Shown here in pieces: positions 36,729 to 52,123 of a stretch of 64,000 bases of DNA. The position numbers and the translations under genes were made by a program. The notes beneath the pieces are model-generated. The model was given only the letters and a program-made list of their open reading frames with translations. It made no database searches and was not told the DNA's origin. The stretch comes from Candidatus Cloacimonadota bacterium (GTDB taxonomy: Bacteria > Cloacimonadota > Cloacimonadia > Cloacimonadales > TCS61). The number at the start of each line of letters is the position of its first letter. The stretch's first letter is position 1. The stretch spans positions 226,035 to 290,034 of the forward strand of contig JASUTE010000001.1 in assembly GCA_030445745.1 (NCBI GenBank). Direction: 5' to 3'.

Positions 36729-37021
36729 GTTTTAGAAGTAGCCCTCAAACAAATTTAGATTCCACATTCATATTACCATGCCAAAACTGGTCAGGCAGGC
36801 AGCTGCCGAGCTTGTGTGATGGAATTGGAAGACATAGCCGGTTTAAAAAACTCTTGTACAATAGAATTTCAAGCAGATATAAAAGTGAATTTCCATACTG
36901 CAAAAATTAAGGAATCTCAGAGAGTTATTGCAATCTAGCACTTTCTTCAGGGCAGCACGACTGCCTTTCCTTACAGCAAATTTTTAACGATTTGGCAAAA
37001 CAAGAACAAAAAACATCGTAA
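36729..37021 (+). pseudogene. N-terminal remnant of a HydA/NuoG/FdhA-type iron-sulfur subunit
   Basis: VLEVALKQI*IPHSYYHAKTGQAGSCRACVMELEDIAGLKNSCTIEFQADIKVNFHTAKIKESQRVI, frameshift, NLALSSGQHDCLSLQQ. Confidence 0.8.
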
Positions 37022-37043
37022 TTTGCTGGAAGAGTTAAAAAAT

Positions 37044-37253
37044 ATGAAAACTACTGAGGCGCTGGCTTTGGCTATAAAAAAAGAACAATAAGCTGTAGAA
37101 TTTTTTCGCCATCTAGCAGAATCGGCTGAAGATGAGCAGATAAAAAAATTATGTTTGAGAATGGCAGTTATGGCGCTAACTCATAAGCAAAAATTGGAAA
37201 ACGCTCTACCGATATTGCTTATATCGAATCATTTTAAATTAATAAAGCAATAA
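37044..37253 (+). pseudogene. Rubrerythrin/ferritin-like domain with in-frame TAA
   Basis: MKTTEALALAIKKEQ*AVEFFRHLAESAEDEQIKKLCLRMAVMALTHKQKLENAL; TAA at 37089-37091. Confidence 0.75.
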
Positions 37254-37315
37254 TTTTTTATTCCTTTTTCATTGACTGATATTTGCTTAAAATACATTTT
37301 CTCTTTTAAATCAAC

Positions 37316-37410
37316 AGCGAGGATGGGTCTGGTGGCTCAGCTGGTCTGCAAAGCCAGTAGCGGGCGGATAAAACCGTCTGTGGCAGGTTCGATTCCTGCC
37401 CTCGCGGCCA
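37316..37410 (+). tRNA. selC: Selenocysteine-tRNA-like gene with GCA (Cys) anticodon
   Basis: D arm TGGGTC-TGGT-GGCTCA (6 bp, 4-nt loop); anticodon arm CTGGT-CTGCAAA-GCCAG; variable arm GCGGGCGG-ATAAAA-CCGTCTGT (8 bp); T arm GCAGG-TTCGATT-CCTGC; acceptor GCGAGG/CCTCGC; discriminator G and encoded CCA; selA, selB, selD in the window. Confidence 0.82.
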
Positions 37411-39412: not shown

Positions 39413-39425
39413 AATTGGAGCTGTG

Positions 39426-40820
39426 ATGAATAAAGCAGAGTTCAAAAAAATTCCTAAGGTAGATATTTTACAGAATAAACTTAAAAACATTGCTGCAAAA
39501 GTAGGTTGGAATTTAACCAACCAACTTATAAATAAAGAGTTACAAGATATTAGGAAACAAGTAGCAGCTGGTTCTAAAGCAGTTGCTGAAGATGAAATAG
39601 TGCAGTCAATAACAAAAAAAGCAGAAAAGCTCTATCATCCCTCACTGAAAAAAGTTATTAATGCTACTGGAATAATTTTGCATACAAACTTAGGCCGTGC
39701 CCCTTTGGGCAAGAAACTATTAAAAGAAATGCAACCACTACTTAGGGGTTATTCCAACCTTGAATTTGATTTGGAAAAAAATGAACGGGGAGAGCGTAAT
39801 TCGCATGTAGCTGATATCCTTAAATTTATCACCGGTGCAGAAGCAGCTTTGGTTGTGAACAACAATGCTGCTGCCGTTATGTTTTGTCTGCAAAAATTTG
39901 CGAAAAATAAACAGGTGATAATCTCTCGCGGGGAGCTGGTGGAGATCGGTGGTTCCTTCCGAATACCGGAAATAATGAGAGCTAGCGGAGCCCAAATGGT
40001 GGAAGTAGGTACTACTAACCGCACCCGCCTGCAAGATTACGAAGCAGCGATAACTGCAGATAGCAAAGTTATCTTCAAAGCTCATAAATCTAACTATTAC
40101 ATTCAAGGATTCACAGAAGAAGCAGAAATAAGTGAATTGGCTGAGTTAGCTAAGCAATATGGACTTATTTTTATATACGATATTGGTTCCGGGTTATTGC
40201 GTAAACCACAAAATTTGCCTTTAGAAAAAGAACCAGATGTAAGATCAGCTATTCAAAGTGGGGCTGATCTGGTGACTTTTAGTGGAGATAAACTTCTGGG
40301 TGGTCCACAAGCCGGCATAATTGTTGGCAGATACAGATTAGTTAGTAAACTAGCCAAAGCACCTATGATGCGAGCTTTGCGGGTTGGCAAAATTACATTA
40401 GCAGCTTTAAGTTTAGTAAGCAGAGCTTACTTGCAAGATGAACAGTTGATTCACAAAATACCAATTTTCCAAATGTTGAATACAACAGAGGAAAAATTGC
40501 TTGATAAAGCCGAACACTTAGCTGAATTACTGAAAGAGAGACAGATAAAATACGAAATTGTGGATACTCTCTCGCAAGTTGGCGGAGGAACTTTGCCAGC
40601 TTTGCAGCTTAAAAGCAAAGCAATAAAAATATTGCCGCTCAGCAAAGATAGAAAATTTGCCCAAAAGATTCATACCAAATTGCTACAGCAAAACATTCCC
40701 ATTTTAGCGATTTTACGTGGGGGAGATTTGCTGCTGGATGTAAGAACTATTTTCCCCGAAGATTATTCTTTAATTGCTGAAAGTATTAAAAAAGTTATGG
40801 TTAATTATGCAAGAGAATGA
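39426..40820 (+). CDS. selA: L-seryl-tRNA(Sec) selenium transferase
   Basis: VINATGIILHTNLGRAPL, VVNNNAAAVMFCL, SRGELVEIGGSFRIPEIM, SNYYIQGFTEE, FSGDKLLGGPQAGIIVG. Confidence 0.97.
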   Translation: MNKAEFKKIPKVDILQNKLKNIAAKVGWNLTNQLINKELQDIRKQVAAGSKAVAEDEIVQSITKKAEKLYHPSLKKVINATGIILHTNLGRAPLGKKLLKEMQPLLRGYSNLEFDLEKNERGERNSHVADILKFITGAEAALVVNNNAAAVMFCLQKFAKNKQVIISRGELVEIGGSFRIPEIMRASGAQMVEVGTTNRTRLQDYEAAITADSKVIFKAHKSNYYIQGFTEEAEISELAELAKQYGLIFIYDIGSGLLRKPQNLPLEKEPDVRSAIQSGADLVTFSGDKLLGGPQAGIIVGRYRLVSKLAKAPMMRALRVGKITLAALSLVSRAYLQDEQLIHKIPIFQMLNTTEEKLLDKAEHLAELLKERQIKYEIVDTLSQVGGGTLPALQLKSKAIKILPLSKDRKFAQKIHTKLLQQNIPILAILRGGDLLLDVRTIFPEDYSLIAESIKKVMVNYARE

Positions 40821-46181: not shown

Positions 46182-48134
46182 ATGAAGCATCTTATTATGG
46201 GCACAGCAGGGCACATTGACCATGGTAAAACAACGCTCATAAAAGCTATCACTGGCTTTGATTGCGATACCCACAAAGAGGAAAAACTGCGGGGAATTAC
46301 CATAAATCTGGGCTTTACCCATCTGGATCTTCCCACTGGCGAGAGCTTGGGAATTGTAGATGTACCCGGTCACGCCGATTTTGTGAATACAATGGTAGCT
46401 GGCGCCAGCGGCATCGATTTTGTATTGTTGGTGGTAGCTGCCGATGCTGGTGTGATGCCGCAAACGATGGAACATCTACAAATTATGGATATCTTGGGTA
46501 TAAAGCAAGGAATAATCGTACTCACCAAGATAGATTTAGTGGATAAGGTGCTTTTGGAAATGGCCAGGGAAGAAGTACGCGAAAGTGTGGAAGGTACTTT
46601 TTTGGAAGATGCCGAGATTATACCCGTTTCTGCCCAGACAGGTGAGGGCTTAGAAATTTTGGTGCAAAAATTAGCAAAAATGGAAGCAGAACTCCCGCAA
46701 CGCGAAGCTGGCGAAGTTTTTCGCATGTTTATCGATAGAATTTTCACTGTACCAGGCTTTGGTACTGTGGTAAACGGCTCCGCCCTGAGTGGTGCTATTC
46801 ACAAAAATGAAAAAGTCTATTTATTACCTCCAGCCAAAAGTTTGCGCATAAGAAGGATAGAGCGTCATGGTCAGGAGGTGGAAGAAGTTAGTTCCGGCGA
46901 TCGCGTGTCTTTAAATTTAACCGGCTTAGACAGAGCGGAATTTGAGCGAGGTATGTTGATTAGCGACCGTGTGTTGCAAAGTACCACCATGATAGATGCC
47001 AAACTAAAATTATTCCAACATAATCGTCCTTTCGCAATCTGGACGCAGGTGATTTTTTTATTAGGAACCTATCTCAGCCAAGCACGTGTACACCTTATCG
47101 ATAGTAACCATTTGGAAGCAGGGGATAGTGCTATTGTACAAATACATTTGGAAAAGCCTCTTATAGCCCAATTTGGTGATAATTTCGTTATTCGCAGCTC
47201 TTCCAGCGATATCACTTTGGGGGGAGGTGAAATTATTGATGTACATCCACTACATCACAGAAGGCGGCCAGAAAAATTAATAAAATCGCTGCACCAGGTT
47301 GTAGAGGGCGATCTCCCTGATCTGATTGCAGCAGAAATTCGTAAGCGGATTGTGCCGGTTTCCCACGATTATATGGCTGCTATTTTGAATATTTCTCCAC
47401 AAAAAGTTTTAGAAGTAGTAGCTAAAGAGTTACCTGGCGATATAATTGCGTTACCTTCCCAAGATACTGTTTATCTTATGAAACATAAAGATCGTGAAAA
47501 ATGGGAAGGTAGAATATTGCGCCATCTGAAGACTTACCATAAGCGCAACCCGATGGATGAAAAAGGTCGTACTTTCGAGGAACTGATGGGACTTTTTGGG
47601 GTTAATCGCAGTTCTACCACTGAAACCATACTACGCTTACTTTTGGATGAACTTACCAGACAAAAAAAGCTGAAAAGAGTGGAACATACCTGGGCACTGG
47701 CAGAACATAAAGTCGTGCTTACATCCCAAGAAAAAGAACAGGTAAATTTTGTAGAAAATTATTTGAAAAATTGTGGTGTACATGTACCGCTGCTTTCCAA
47801 ACTTATTTCACTGGCAAATAAAAAACAGATTGGCGAAAATAAATTGAAACAGATTCTGCGATTACTAGTGAATAAAGGCTTGGCATACAATATCGATGGG
47901 AACTTCTTGCATGCTGATTTGGTAGATGAATTCAGACAGAAATTGCTAGAATATTTAGTAGAGCATAAGGAAGGCTGCACCGTGGCAGATTTCAGAGATC
48001 TAATCGGCGGAAATCGCAAAATATGTCTGTTATTACTGAATTTATTCGACAGTGAAGGAATTACTGTACGCAAGGGTGATTATCGCCATATAACCGAAAA
48101 GGGTCGCAAAAAATTAGCTGAATTACAAGGTTAG
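46182..48134 (+). CDS. selB: Selenocysteine-specific translation elongation factor
   Basis: [55 protein letters not shown]-terminal winged-helix region. Confidence 0.96.
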
Positions 48135-48722
48135 AACCTTATCGGGACCGGTAAGATTTTCAGCAATTTCATACATATTGGAAACAGAACCTACAGCCAG
48201 TTTATCTTTTAAGCCAAAATAATCTAAGCAGGTGCCACATACCAAAATTTGCAGATCTTTTTGCAAGGTTTGCAAATTCGCCAGTGCTTCCGAACCTTGC
48301 ACAGCCAGCTTCACGCCAGAATTCATTAAAATTAACTTTTTAGGTTTGCATTGCAATTGGGTTAAAGTATATAAAAAAGATTTCATCAGCAAAGCTCCCA
48401 ATTCCTGGCTACCTTTTCCTAAAATATTGGAAGATATAAAGATTATTTTCGCATCTGGACAACTAATTTTCGGTTTATTTTTCTCTATTTTTTCCACTAC
48501 TTTGGAGTCAGTTTTTATTATCACATGATAGTTTCCAGCTTTTTGAAGTATTTCGGTAACAGTGTTTCCCATATTTTCAGCAAATCGCTGGACGTTTTGG
48601 CTGGCAGGTTTGTTATCTACAATTACTTCTAATTCACTAAATTTGCCTTCTTCTAATGCATTTTTGGTTCTAATTACAGGTTGCGGACAAGCTAAGCCGC
48701 GCCCATCAACTATTTTCTTCAT
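48123..48722 (-). CDS. yedF: Selenium-metabolism protein YedF (TusA/SirA plus DsrE-like)
   Basis: VDGRGLACPQPVIRTKNAL; C-terminal LILMNSGVKLAVQGSEALANLQTL. Confidence 0.9.
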   Translation of the reverse strand: MKKIVDGRGLACPQPVIRTKNALEEGKFSELEVIVDNKPASQNVQRFAENMGNTVTEILQKAGNYHVIIKTDSKVVEKIEKNKPKISCPDAKIIFISSNILGKGSQELGALLMKSFLYTLTQLQCKPKKLILMNSGVKLAVQGSEALANLQTLQKDLQILVCGTCLDYFGLKDKLAVGSVSNMYEIAENLTGPDKVLTL

Positions 48723-48957
48723 AATTAATATTTCCTTCCATATCTTTTTTGACAATGTATATTTTAGCGTATTGCAATTGTTGTTTAGATAAATTTTCCT
48801 TTAGTTCGGGTAGATCCCATTTTTTTGTTAACAGCGAAAATCCGCATTCAGAGCTAATTTGGCGTGGTGTTGGAATAATTTCTACAAATCTATGCAAGCG
48901 TGTGTTCGCTTTTATCGCCTGGTGCGAGCTGGCAAAGGTTATTACATATTCTGTCAT
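48706..48957 (-). CDS. DUF3343-family protein
   Basis: VITFASSHQAIKANTRL...IIPTPRQISSECGFSL; ATGA overlap with selD. Confidence 0.78.
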   Translation of the reverse strand: MTEYVITFASSHQAIKANTRLHRFVEIIPTPRQISSECGFSLLTKKWDLPELKENLSKQQLQYAKIYIVKKDMEGNINYEENS

Positions 48958-49985
48958 AATCTTACCTCTATTTTTTCTGCCTTGGAAGTTGTTTTGCCTA
49001 TCTTTTGGGCTGTTATGTTGCACTTATGCATAGCCTTGACAATTTTTGTGCTTTCTTGTTTAGGAACAACTAAAAGCAGGCCTCCAGAAGTTTGCGGATC
49101 GAAAAGGATATCTAGTTTTTCTGGTGGAATTTTGCTATTTTCTACCAGCATTTTTTGTCTGAATTCTTTGTTTCTGTAAGTACCGGCAGGAACCATTGCT
49201 AATTTAGCATAATCGGTAACCTCGGGCAGCAATTCTATCTTATCGTAATAAATTTCGACGCCAAAGTTGCTCTTCACTATCATCTCGGCAATATGTCCCA
49301 ATAAACCAAAGCCGGTAATATCGGTACAAGCAACCACGTTGAAATCATTAGCAATTTCTGCAGCATATTTATTCAGCTGCTTCATGGAGTGAGAAGAGGC
49401 TTTGATAGCTTTTGGGGAAGCTAAACCACCACGCAGAGCAGTATTGATAATGCCAGTGCCGATAGGTTTGGTTAAAATGAGATCGCAATTTGCTTGCAGT
49501 GTATTGTTTAGCAATATTTTGCTGGGTTCAGCCTGGCCAGTTACTGCTAAGCCGAATTTTAACTCATCATCTTCCACACTATGACCGCCCAGCAGAGCGC
49601 ATTCTGCTTCTTGCAGTTTGTCTAAACTTCCTCTCATAATATTTCTAAGCACATCAATATCCATTTTTTTCTGAGGAAAATTTACAATACTAAGTGCAGA
49701 AATTGGTTTTGCGCCCATCGCATAAATATCCGATAGTGCATTTGCAGTTGCGATTTGACCAAACTCAAAGGGATCGTCTACTATTGGTGGGAAAAAATCT
49801 ACAGATTGTATTAAGGCAGTATTTTCATTTATTTTATAAACACCAGCATCTTCGGCATGATGATAGTCTATTAATAAATTTGGATATTTGGGTTGGCTAA
49901 GCCCACATAAAGCCTGGTCTAAGACACACGGTCCTAGCTTTGCTCCACACCCACTGAAGCGAGTGTATTTGGTTAGATCAATCAT
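48954..49985 (-). CDS. selD: Selenide, water dikinase; residue 13 (UGU) is a candidate Sec site
   Basis: SGCGAKLGPCVL, HHAEDAGVY, VDFFPPIVDDPFEFGQIATANALSDIYAMGAKPISAL, TDITGFGLLGH. Confidence 0.96.
   Translation of the reverse strand: MIDLTKYTRFSGCGAKLGPCVLDQALCGLSQPKYPNLLIDYHHAEDAGVYKINENTALIQSVDFFPPIVDDPFEFGQIATANALSDIYAMGAKPISALSIVNFPQKKMDIDVLRNIMRGSLDKLQEAECALLGGHSVEDDELKFGLAVTGQAEPSKILLNNTLQANCDLILTKPIGTGIINTALRGGLASPKAIKASSHSMKQLNKYAAEIANDFNVVACTDITGFGLLGHIAEMIVKSNFGVEIYYDKIELLPEVTDYAKLAMVPAGTYRNKEFRQKMLVENSKIPPEKLDILFDPQTSGGLLLVVPKQESTKIVKAMHKCNITAQKIGKTTSKAEKIEVRL
49919..49937 (-). promoter_or_regulatory. Candidate bacterial SECIS hairpin in selD
   Basis: mRNA: UGU-GGAGCAAAG-CUAGGAC-CGUGU-GUCUUAG; 7-bp stem with one G-U, loop 16 nt after the codon. 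Confidence 0.6.
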
Positions 49986-51132
49986 ATGCTCGGTTCCTTA
50001 TAATCTTTTTCAATATTCTTATTGCTTCATCTATTTGCCACTGGCTGGTAAAATAACCCGGACTGAATCTCACAGTTCCGCCCCTGGCAAAAGTTCCTAT
50101 AGTTTTATGTGCTGCTGGCGCACAATGTAATCCCATGCGCGTAGCAATCTCGTATTTGTCAAGTTGAGTAGTAAGATAGCTAAGTGAAATATTAGGTGAA
50201 AACACTGAGAGGATACCAATTTGCTTCTGCAGATCAGCGGGTGATACAAGCACCAGTTCATCTATTGTTTTTAATTGTTCTACAAAATAAGCAGTAATAT
50301 CTTCTTTTTGCTTTTTTATTTTGTTCACAGATGTTGTTAACAGAAAATCTAAAGCGGCATTAAGCCCTGCTAAAGAAGCCACATTTTGGGTGCCACTTTC
50401 GAACTTATCTGGTCGAAAATCAGGTTGTATTTCGAGTTCTGAACGACTACCAGTACCGCCGAACATAAGTGGAGAAAGCTGAATTTTAGGATCACAGTAA
50501 AAACCACCAGTGCCGGTAGGTCCTAATAAGCCCTTATGTCCTGGAAAACAGATAATATCTATGTTTGTGGCAATTTTCTCCAGAGGATAAGTACCGAACA
50601 CCTGAGCTGCATCTAAACAAAAAATCACCTTGTGTTTTTTAGCTACTGCAGCCATTTCTCTGATAGGGAAAATAGACCCAATTACATTGGAAGCAGCTGT
50701 ACTTACCAATAATTTTGGTTTTTTTTGTATTTTCTGCAGAAAATCGTTCCAAATAGGAAAACCATGTTTATCGCATTTAAATTGCGATATTTTTATATTC
50801 CTGGTTTTTTCTAAATGACGCAAAGGACGCATAACCGCATTATGCTCCATACTGGAAGTTAGCACACTGTCACCTTCTGTTAAAATTCCTAGAATAACTG
50901 TATTCAATGCCTGGGTTGCGTTAAGTGTGAAACTAATATTTTCACTGTCTTCTTTTCCAAGTAATTTAACCAGTTTTTCACGTGTTTCGAATAATATAGC
51001 GCTAGCTTTCACAGCAGAGCTATGAGACGAGCGACCGGCATTTGCACCTATTTTGTCTAAAAAATTAAAAACTGCTTGGGCTACTCCAGGAGCTTTGGGA
51101 AAAGAAGTAGCTGCATTATCTAAATAAATCAT
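49978..51132 (-). CDS. Class V aminotransferase (cysteine desulfurase/SufS-like)
   Basis: YLDNAATSFPKAPGV, NATQALN, CLDAAQVFGTYPL, PGHKGLLGPTGTGGFY, GLHCAPAAHKTIGT. Confidence 0.93.
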   Translation of the reverse strand: MIYLDNAATSFPKAPGVAQAVFNFLDKIGANAGRSSHSSAVKASAILFETREKLVKLLGKEDSENISFTLNATQALNTVILGILTEGDSVLTSSMEHNAVMRPLRHLEKTRNIKISQFKCDKHGFPIWNDFLQKIQKKPKLLVSTAASNVIGSIFPIREMAAVAKKHKVIFCLDAAQVFGTYPLEKIATNIDIICFPGHKGLLGPTGTGGFYCDPKIQLSPLMFGGTGSRSELEIQPDFRPDKFESGTQNVASLAGLNAALDFLLTTSVNKIKKQKEDITAYFVEQLKTIDELVLVSPADLQKQIGILSVFSPNISLSYLTTQLDKYEIATRMGLHCAPAAHKTIGTFARGGTVRFSPGYFTSQWQIDEAIRILKKIIRNRAYD

Positions 51133-51322: not shown

Positions 51323-52123
51323 ATGGCAGGTTTCAATTCACCAAGCAGTATTGCTGAAACCGTGATAAACAAGGTTGGGGTTACTAAGTGCAAAATCGGT
51401 TTTTGGAAGTTGGTAATCTTAGGTATTTTAGCTGGTGCTTTTATTGCTTTTGGTGCTCAGTTAGCCACCCGAGTAGGTGCACTCGTATCAGATCCCGGAA
51501 TATCTATTTTAATTTTTGGGAGTGTGTTTAGTGTTGGCCTCATGCTAGTGGTTATAGCTGGAGCGGAGCTTTTTACTGGTAACAATCTTATGTTCATGTC
51601 TGTTTTAGCTGGTAAAGTCAAATATTCACAAATGTTGCAGAAATGGTTGATAGTTTTCATATCCAATTTTATAGGATCAATGCTTCTAGTTTGGTTTATG
51701 TACAGCTCAGGGCTTGTATCGGGTGATATAGCAGCTGAAGCTATTTCTATAGCACAATCTAAGGTAAGTTTATCTTTCTGGCCAGCTTTTGTGCGTGGTA
51801 TAATGTGTAATTGGCTGGTATGTTTAGCTGTATGGTTGGCTTTAGCTTCCCATGATGTTACAGGAAAATTATTTGGGATATTTTTTCCGATTATGGCTTT
51901 TGCAGCATCAGGGTTTGAACATAGTGTAGCAAATATGTATTTCATTCCTATAGGTATGTATCTGCAAGATCCCATGGAAGCAGTTATGTTAGGAGAAACA
52001 CTTATTACTTGGAAGGGATTTTTCATTAATCTGATTCCCGTTACTTTAGGTAACATAGTAGGTGGTGCTGGTTTCGTAGCTACGCTTTATTGGTTAGTAT
52101 ACTATAAACTTAAAACCAAATAA
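51323..52123 (+). CDS. focA: Formate/nitrite transporter family protein
   Basis: AGAFIAFGAQLAT, GAELFTGNNLMFMS, GIMCNWLVCLAVWLA, GFEHSVANMYFIPIGM, NIVGGAGFVATLYW. Confidence 0.93.
   Translation: MAGFNSPSSIAETVINKVGVTKCKIGFWKLVILGILAGAFIAFGAQLATRVGALVSDPGISILIFGSVFSVGLMLVVIAGAELFTGNNLMFMSVLAGKVKYSQMLQKWLIVFISNFIGSMLLVWFMYSSGLVSGDIAAEAISIAQSKVSLSFWPAFVRGIMCNWLVCLAVWLALASHDVTGKLFGIFFPIMAFAASGFEHSVANMYFIPIGMYLQDPMEAVMLGETLITWKGFFINLIPVTLGNIVGGAGFVATLYWLVYYKLKTK

Follow-up and report, generated by a model that had tools for sequence, protein, structure and literature searches.

The window, a 64,000-nucleotide stretch of a Candidatus Cloacimonadota genome, carries on its forward strand a 95-nt gene for a selenocysteine tRNA (tRNA-Sec) with the anticodon GCA (37316-37410, including the encoded CCA at 37408-37410). 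The Rfam model RF01852 (tRNA-Sec) matches positions 37315-37407 at 55.7 bits (E=1.5e-8), above its gathering score of 47. ARAGORN labels the same gene tRNA-Cys(gca), a warning for annotation that such a tRNA is called tRNA-Cys. The acceptor stem (37316-37322/37400-37406) is accompanied by a 6-bp D stem (37324-37329/37334-37339) closing the 4-nt loop TGGT, an anticodon stem (37340-37345/37353-37358) whose loop CTGCAAA places GCA at 37348-37350, a long variable arm with an 8-bp stem containing three G-U pairs, a 5-bp T stem without a bulge, and the discriminator G73 (37407). A preliminary description of this DNA had proposed this anatomy, its coordinates and the anticodon, and our reading of the sequence and the RF01852 score bear it out. 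The gene shares with bacterial tRNA-Sec the 6-bp D stem with its 4-nt loop, the long variable arm and G73, and differs from it in having GCA in place of UCA and an acceptor-T branch of 7+5 (12 bp) in place of 8+5 (13 bp).

The same description had pointed to the 12-bp branch and an A-G first acceptor pair as possible signs of a decaying gene; both are present, but they are general among relatives and do not indicate decay. The alignment set the window copy beside 33 tRNA-Sec genes from relatives, 30 within its family and three from other families. The 7+5 branch is common to all 33 relatives, as are the 95-nt length and the GCCA 3' end, and position 1/72 is A-G in 26 of the 30 family relatives and A-A in the other 4. 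Thus the A1/G72 mismatch and the 7+5 branch are best taken as features of the lineage and not as quirks of the window copy. The comparison shows the structure to be kept: 31 of 32 pairs are formed, and six pairs have changed on both sides relative to the family consensus, among them the third acceptor pair, A-U to C-G in the window genome only. At unpaired positions only two bases differ from the consensus: position 34, where U has become G, and a base in the variable loop. We reject decay in view of the compensatory pair changes and of the mismatch and branch seen in relatives, and the tRNA with G34 is under structural selection. A Cloacimonetes type of tRNA-Sec with a 7+5 branch and one linker nucleotide missing is attributed to Mukai et al. 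2016 by PMC5330540. The window gene resembles it in the branch, the one-nucleotide linker, G73 and the long variable arm and differs in its GCA anticodon, the 30 family members being read as UCA by ARAGORN.

The genome comprises 2,039,315 bases (2.04 Mb) in 38 contigs and is 99.3% complete. ARAGORN, applied to the whole of it in stretches, found 43 tRNAs, none of them with a UCA anticodon, and the window gene is the only match in the genome over the tRNA-Sec cut-off. A second tRNA-Sec with UCA, which the preliminary description held would undo its proposal, was searched for genome-wide and not found. The search also located a normal tRNA-Cys(GCA) at C33:192977-193050 (ARAGORN).

As had been claimed, selA, selB and selD all lie in the window, and each is intact by NCBIfam equivalog models scoring above their cut-offs. 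The forward-strand selA (39423-40820), for L-seryl-tRNA(Sec) selenium transferase, reaches 544 bits with TIGR00474 (cut-off 268) and 1.5e-132 with Pfam SelA. The forward-strand selB (46182-48134), for the selenocysteine (Sec)-specific elongation factor, reaches 359 bits with TIGR00475 (cut-off 242), and its product has a C-terminal winged helix (SelB-wing_3, residues 591-636). In known SelB proteins this winged helix binds the SECIS hairpin. On the reverse strand, selD (48954-49985; TIGR00476, 365 bits, cut-off 125) encodes a selenophosphate synthetase of the Sec type (G-[C/U]-G-A-K), a predicted selenoprotein. It is clustered (48123-51132, reverse strand) with a gene for a yedF-like selenium-metabolism sulfurtransferase (48123-48755; TIGR03527, 205 bits, cut-off 110) and an adjoining gene for a cysteine desulfurase/selenocysteine-lyase-like protein (49978-51132; TIGR01977, 405 bits, over the cut-off). 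The latter protein scores 330 bits with the SclA model, under that model's cut-off of 525. From sequence, its role is probably selenium supply, and the cluster as a whole is a probable selenium-supply operon.

Codons and hairpins at predicted selenocysteine sites

In relatives, the one in-frame TGA of selD encodes the catalytic residue and has a hairpin downstream of it; the closest relative (G019) also has TGA as its catalytic codon. The window selD has TGT at this place (codon 13, 49947-49949, reverse strand), a predicted Sec site that is matched to the relatives' TGA in 22 of 22 alignments and is followed by the GAK of Sec-type SelD. Nine nucleotides past the TGT lies a putative SECIS hairpin (CTAGGAC-CGTGT-GTCTTAG, 49919-49937, reverse strand; 7 bp, -7.1 kcal/mol). 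Its location is that of the hairpin in TGA-type selD genes, and its loop is CGUGU, where relatives have GG(N) loops. UGC and UGU also encode cysteine, and plain cysteine proteins would give equally open frames.

A strict scan for GGUC-loop hairpins over all 635,739 codons of the genome found 18, two of them after cysteine codons against 0.17 expected. Both follow a UGC codon in two adjacent genes for secreted proteins on contig C13 (Omp28a and Omp28b). A looser, bulge-tolerant genome-wide scan showed no enrichment of cysteine codons (5 against 2.9 expected). When one of the C13 genes was searched against the 40 genomes of the family, 30 had homologs, and almost every homolog contained a single TGA. 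In these Omp28-like genes the TGA stands at exactly the position of the TGC in the window genome, within a U-x-x-C site, and the same hairpin, with a GGUCU or GGUCG loop, occupies the homologous place. The TGC was aligned to TGA in 29 of 31 comparisons for Omp28a and 25 of 30 for Omp28b. The best match of the N-terminal domains of both switched genes is NCBIfam NF045500 (Omp28-related selenoprotein; 4.9e-19), which is met by N-terminal pieces only, at 68.9 and 27 bits against a cut-off of 200; we claim a relationship to these proteins and not membership, the window genome differing in having UGC at the Sec codon.

The hairpins are stronger than the protein sequence demands. Equally stable hairpins arose in 0.1% of synonymous recodings for SelD (0.001) and in 1.8% each for Omp28a (P=0.018) and Omp28b (P=0.018), which combine to about 4e-5. 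Against dinucleotide shuffles the energies are not exceptional (z from -0.3 to -0.9; -0.27 for selD), and we therefore place the weight on position, loop, homology and a control genome rather than on energy. In that control (G006, a UCA genome) a true cysteine homolog has lost the hairpin, whereas the hairpins of the window genome are retained at about 50% protein divergence.

More broadly, when the proteins of the genome were compared by tblastn with 710 kb of DNA from relatives, 90 well-flanked in-frame TGA codons were found, of which 78 aligned to TGC or TGT, a fraction that is not an unbiased genome sample, many loci having been chosen for containing these genes; the unbiased part is the G019 DNA, about 327 kb.

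A third Omp28-like paralog on the same contig (C13:37369-38697), with a weak PF11551 match, has a GGUCU hairpin with a bulged U, 24 nt from its first cysteine codon and 15 nt from its second (TGT), and is a possible Sec protein. Other SECIS-like cysteine sites (C35 of a DUF523 protein, C3 of an RseC-like protein and others) lack the GGUC loop and were taken as chance. G019 has a gene for an AhpC-type peroxiredoxin that contains UGA and a hairpin with a GGTC loop (contig C14, about 19268, reverse strand), for which the window genome offers only distant cysteine peroxiredoxins. One of these, o1205, aligns to it without a matching hairpin and was rejected as a Sec site. Formate dehydrogenase (FDH) was likewise dropped as a switched selenoprotein, the genome having no PF00384 match at E<=1e-10. 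A formate/nitrite transporter gene (51323-52123, forward strand) nevertheless lies beside the selD cluster; in G019 a similar transporter gene is directly 3' of a UGA-containing FDH gene. The relatives' FDH and Sec-peroxiredoxin not being found here, few Sec proteins appear to remain.

Anticodons and codons across the phylum

A tRNA-Sec is present in 35 of the 40 family genomes and the UCA pattern of it in 34; all 30 of the relatives' loci that were fetched read UCA by ARAGORN. A pattern for the tRNA-Sec core, run over 125 genomes of the phylum, matched with GCA in four, each from a different family, and with UCA in 47 others. The three further GCA tRNAs (in G094, G096 and G102) score 57-62 bits as tRNA-Sec. 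An assembly or sequencing error at G37348, a concern raised in the preliminary description, would need just one base to turn UCA into GCA; given three other genomes with the same anticodon, matching codons in three genes of this genome and no UCA copy in it, such an error is barely conceivable.

The anticodon and the codon go together in the Omp28-like genes. TGA is found in 52 of 55 such genes from UCA genomes vs 0 of 9 from GCA genomes (Fisher 8e-9, uncorrected for relatedness). A search of the 125 genomes for TGY followed by the SECIS loop (CGGKC) returned seven exact matches, all in Omp28-like genes and all in genomes that have the GCA tRNA (G096 and the window genome itself, G000) or match neither tRNA pattern (G097, G101 and G105); the UCA pattern was matched in none of the genomes carrying them. 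The TGA versions, which fit this pattern with one mismatch, turned up in no GCA genome. The matches without either tRNA pattern lie at G097:C38:7055, G101:C215:5431 and G105:C142:3580, and judging by these genes the three genomes are probably further users of cysteine codons for Sec, their tRNA having diverged or being missing. SelD homologs found in G094, G096 and G102 contain no TGA. Only the G094 homolog is clearly a standalone SelD, the G096 frame having the length of fused cysteine-type proteins and that of G102 also being long, so the latter two say little on the codon switch; the SelD and Omp28 DNA of all three genomes is known through pattern matches only.

Probable reading of the cysteine codons

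We consider it highly probable that Sec is inserted under SECIS direction at UGC and UGU by SelB, using the organism's only tRNA-Sec, with a product that is probably a mixture of Sec and cysteine because the ordinary tRNA-Cys also fits these codons. This agrees with the sense-codon Sec system put forward in the preliminary description, which TGY at homologous Sec sites and the kept SECIS elements support. The sequence itself shows the tRNA, the lack of a UCA tRNA, the switched codons, the hairpins and the intact sel genes; charging, delivery by SelB, insertion and the inserted fraction we infer. The tRNA-Sec(GCA) would be serylated by SerRS, and SelA would convert the seryl-tRNA to Sec-tRNA using selenophosphate from SelD. 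SelB would then carry it to UGC and UGU codons that precede a SECIS hairpin, GCA being able to read both through G34-C and G34-U pairing. Sec would thus enter SelD (at UGU) and at least two secreted Omp28-like proteins of thioredoxin type (at UGC), while the remaining cysteine codons would be read by ordinary tRNA-Cys with EF-Tu, and the Sec/cysteine mixture would depend on selenium supply.

How much Sec is made is a matter of degree. It is an even bet that recoding is leaky, with the normal tRNA-Cys(GCA) competing for the same codons and supplying mostly cysteine, and with Sec as a minority, selenium-dependent upgrade and not a fixed meaning; cross-incorporation of cysteine and Sec is known (PMC8762117). 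This is a quantitative version of the preferred explanation, with which its confidence overlaps. A plain replacement, in which Sec in the proteins has reverted to cysteine and a Sec trait on its way out has left the tRNA, SelA, SelB and the hairpins as relics, would draw on the chemical workability of cysteine at both positions, on the FDH not found here and on the merely distant cysteine homologs of the G019 Sec-AhpC. We regard it as improbable in view of the intact sel machinery, the tRNA pairs maintained through two-sided changes, the hairpins kept at a divergence of about 50% and lost in the true cysteine homolog, and the same pairing of tRNA and codon in other genera. The tRNA could also be of the selC* type; CysRS would then charge it with cysteine, and delivery by SelB would lead to insertion of cysteine rather than Sec. 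GCA is an identity element for CysRS, and there are selC* tRNA-Cys species that have this anticodon and are delivered by SelB (PMC7609411; PMC11415595). Those tRNAs share with the window gene a tRNA-Sec-like body and the anticodon, but have U73 and an 8/4 branch with a bulged A (PMC7609411), unlike the G73 (37407), 7+5 branch and 5-bp T stem found here. The 6-bp D stem and 4-nt loop of a SelA substrate are kept, selA and selD are intact, and cysteine borne by SelB to cysteine codons would be no gain; we judge this reading very unlikely.

As the preliminary description noted, tRNA-Sec species with sense anticodons, including ones for cysteine codons, have been reported (PMC10778597, PMC11415595 and PMC8124441, citing Mukai et al. 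2016). The features of that kind of recoding are found here: a variant anticodon in a genome without a UCA tRNA-Sec, matching codons at homologous Sec sites (TGT in SelD, TGC in two Omp28-like genes), a SECIS hairpin 3' of the codon, and intact selA, selB and selD. Sec at cysteine codons is a rare, already reported change of the genetic code; the window system belongs to that kind, and the GCA tRNA-Sec of this lineage may already be listed in the 2016 survey. The closest parallel is Aeromonas salmonicida, in which Sec is placed at cysteine codons via tRNA-Sec(GCA) (Mukai et al. 2016 as cited in PMC10778597 and PMC11415595). Alike are the anticodon, the SECIS direction and a 12-bp branch, recognised by the Aeromonas SelA. 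Unlike are the lineage, the switching here of SelD and secreted Omp28-like proteins, the use of both UGC and UGU, and a trait common to several genera. Geodermatophilus and Blastococcus, where tRNA-Sec(CUA) makes UAG the Sec codon (PMC5330540), likewise have selenoprotein genes carrying the codon that matches the altered tRNA, but theirs is a stop codon whereas here sense codons are shared with a competing tRNA-Cys. One can ask whether a sense codon with two competing tRNAs can have two meanings, set only by a downstream hairpin. Genome annotation hides such selenoproteins, their Sec sites being annotated as plain cysteine. Related genomes with UGA-Sec and with cysteine-codon Sec provide a natural comparison for gene-by-gene reassignment of the Sec codon.

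Origin of the GCA locus

In the variable arm, all four GCA tRNAs agree in states that UCA tRNAs seldom or never show, such as G-C at pair 51-60 (numbered along the aligned gene). An intact rubrerythrin gene lies just upstream of the GCA tRNA-Sec in G096 and G102, and a rubrerythrin gene adjoins none of 30 UCA loci. The common variable-arm states and the rubrerythrin neighbour suggest one origin of the GCA locus. Tentatively, and with somewhat less than even confidence, we propose that the cysteine-codon Sec code had a single origin within this order, at a tRNA-Sec(GCA)/rubrerythrin locus, and now extends over several families through inheritance or through a transfer that brought the locus into this genome, the selenoprotein genes of the recipient then moving from UGA to UGC or UGU. 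If true, this would give a selenium-dependent cysteine-to-Sec upgrade without truncation of the protein when selenium is scarce. The window itself retains a remnant of this neighbour: just upstream of the tRNA, a rubrerythrin-like gene (about 37020-37253, forward strand) is broken, with TAA in its reading frame.
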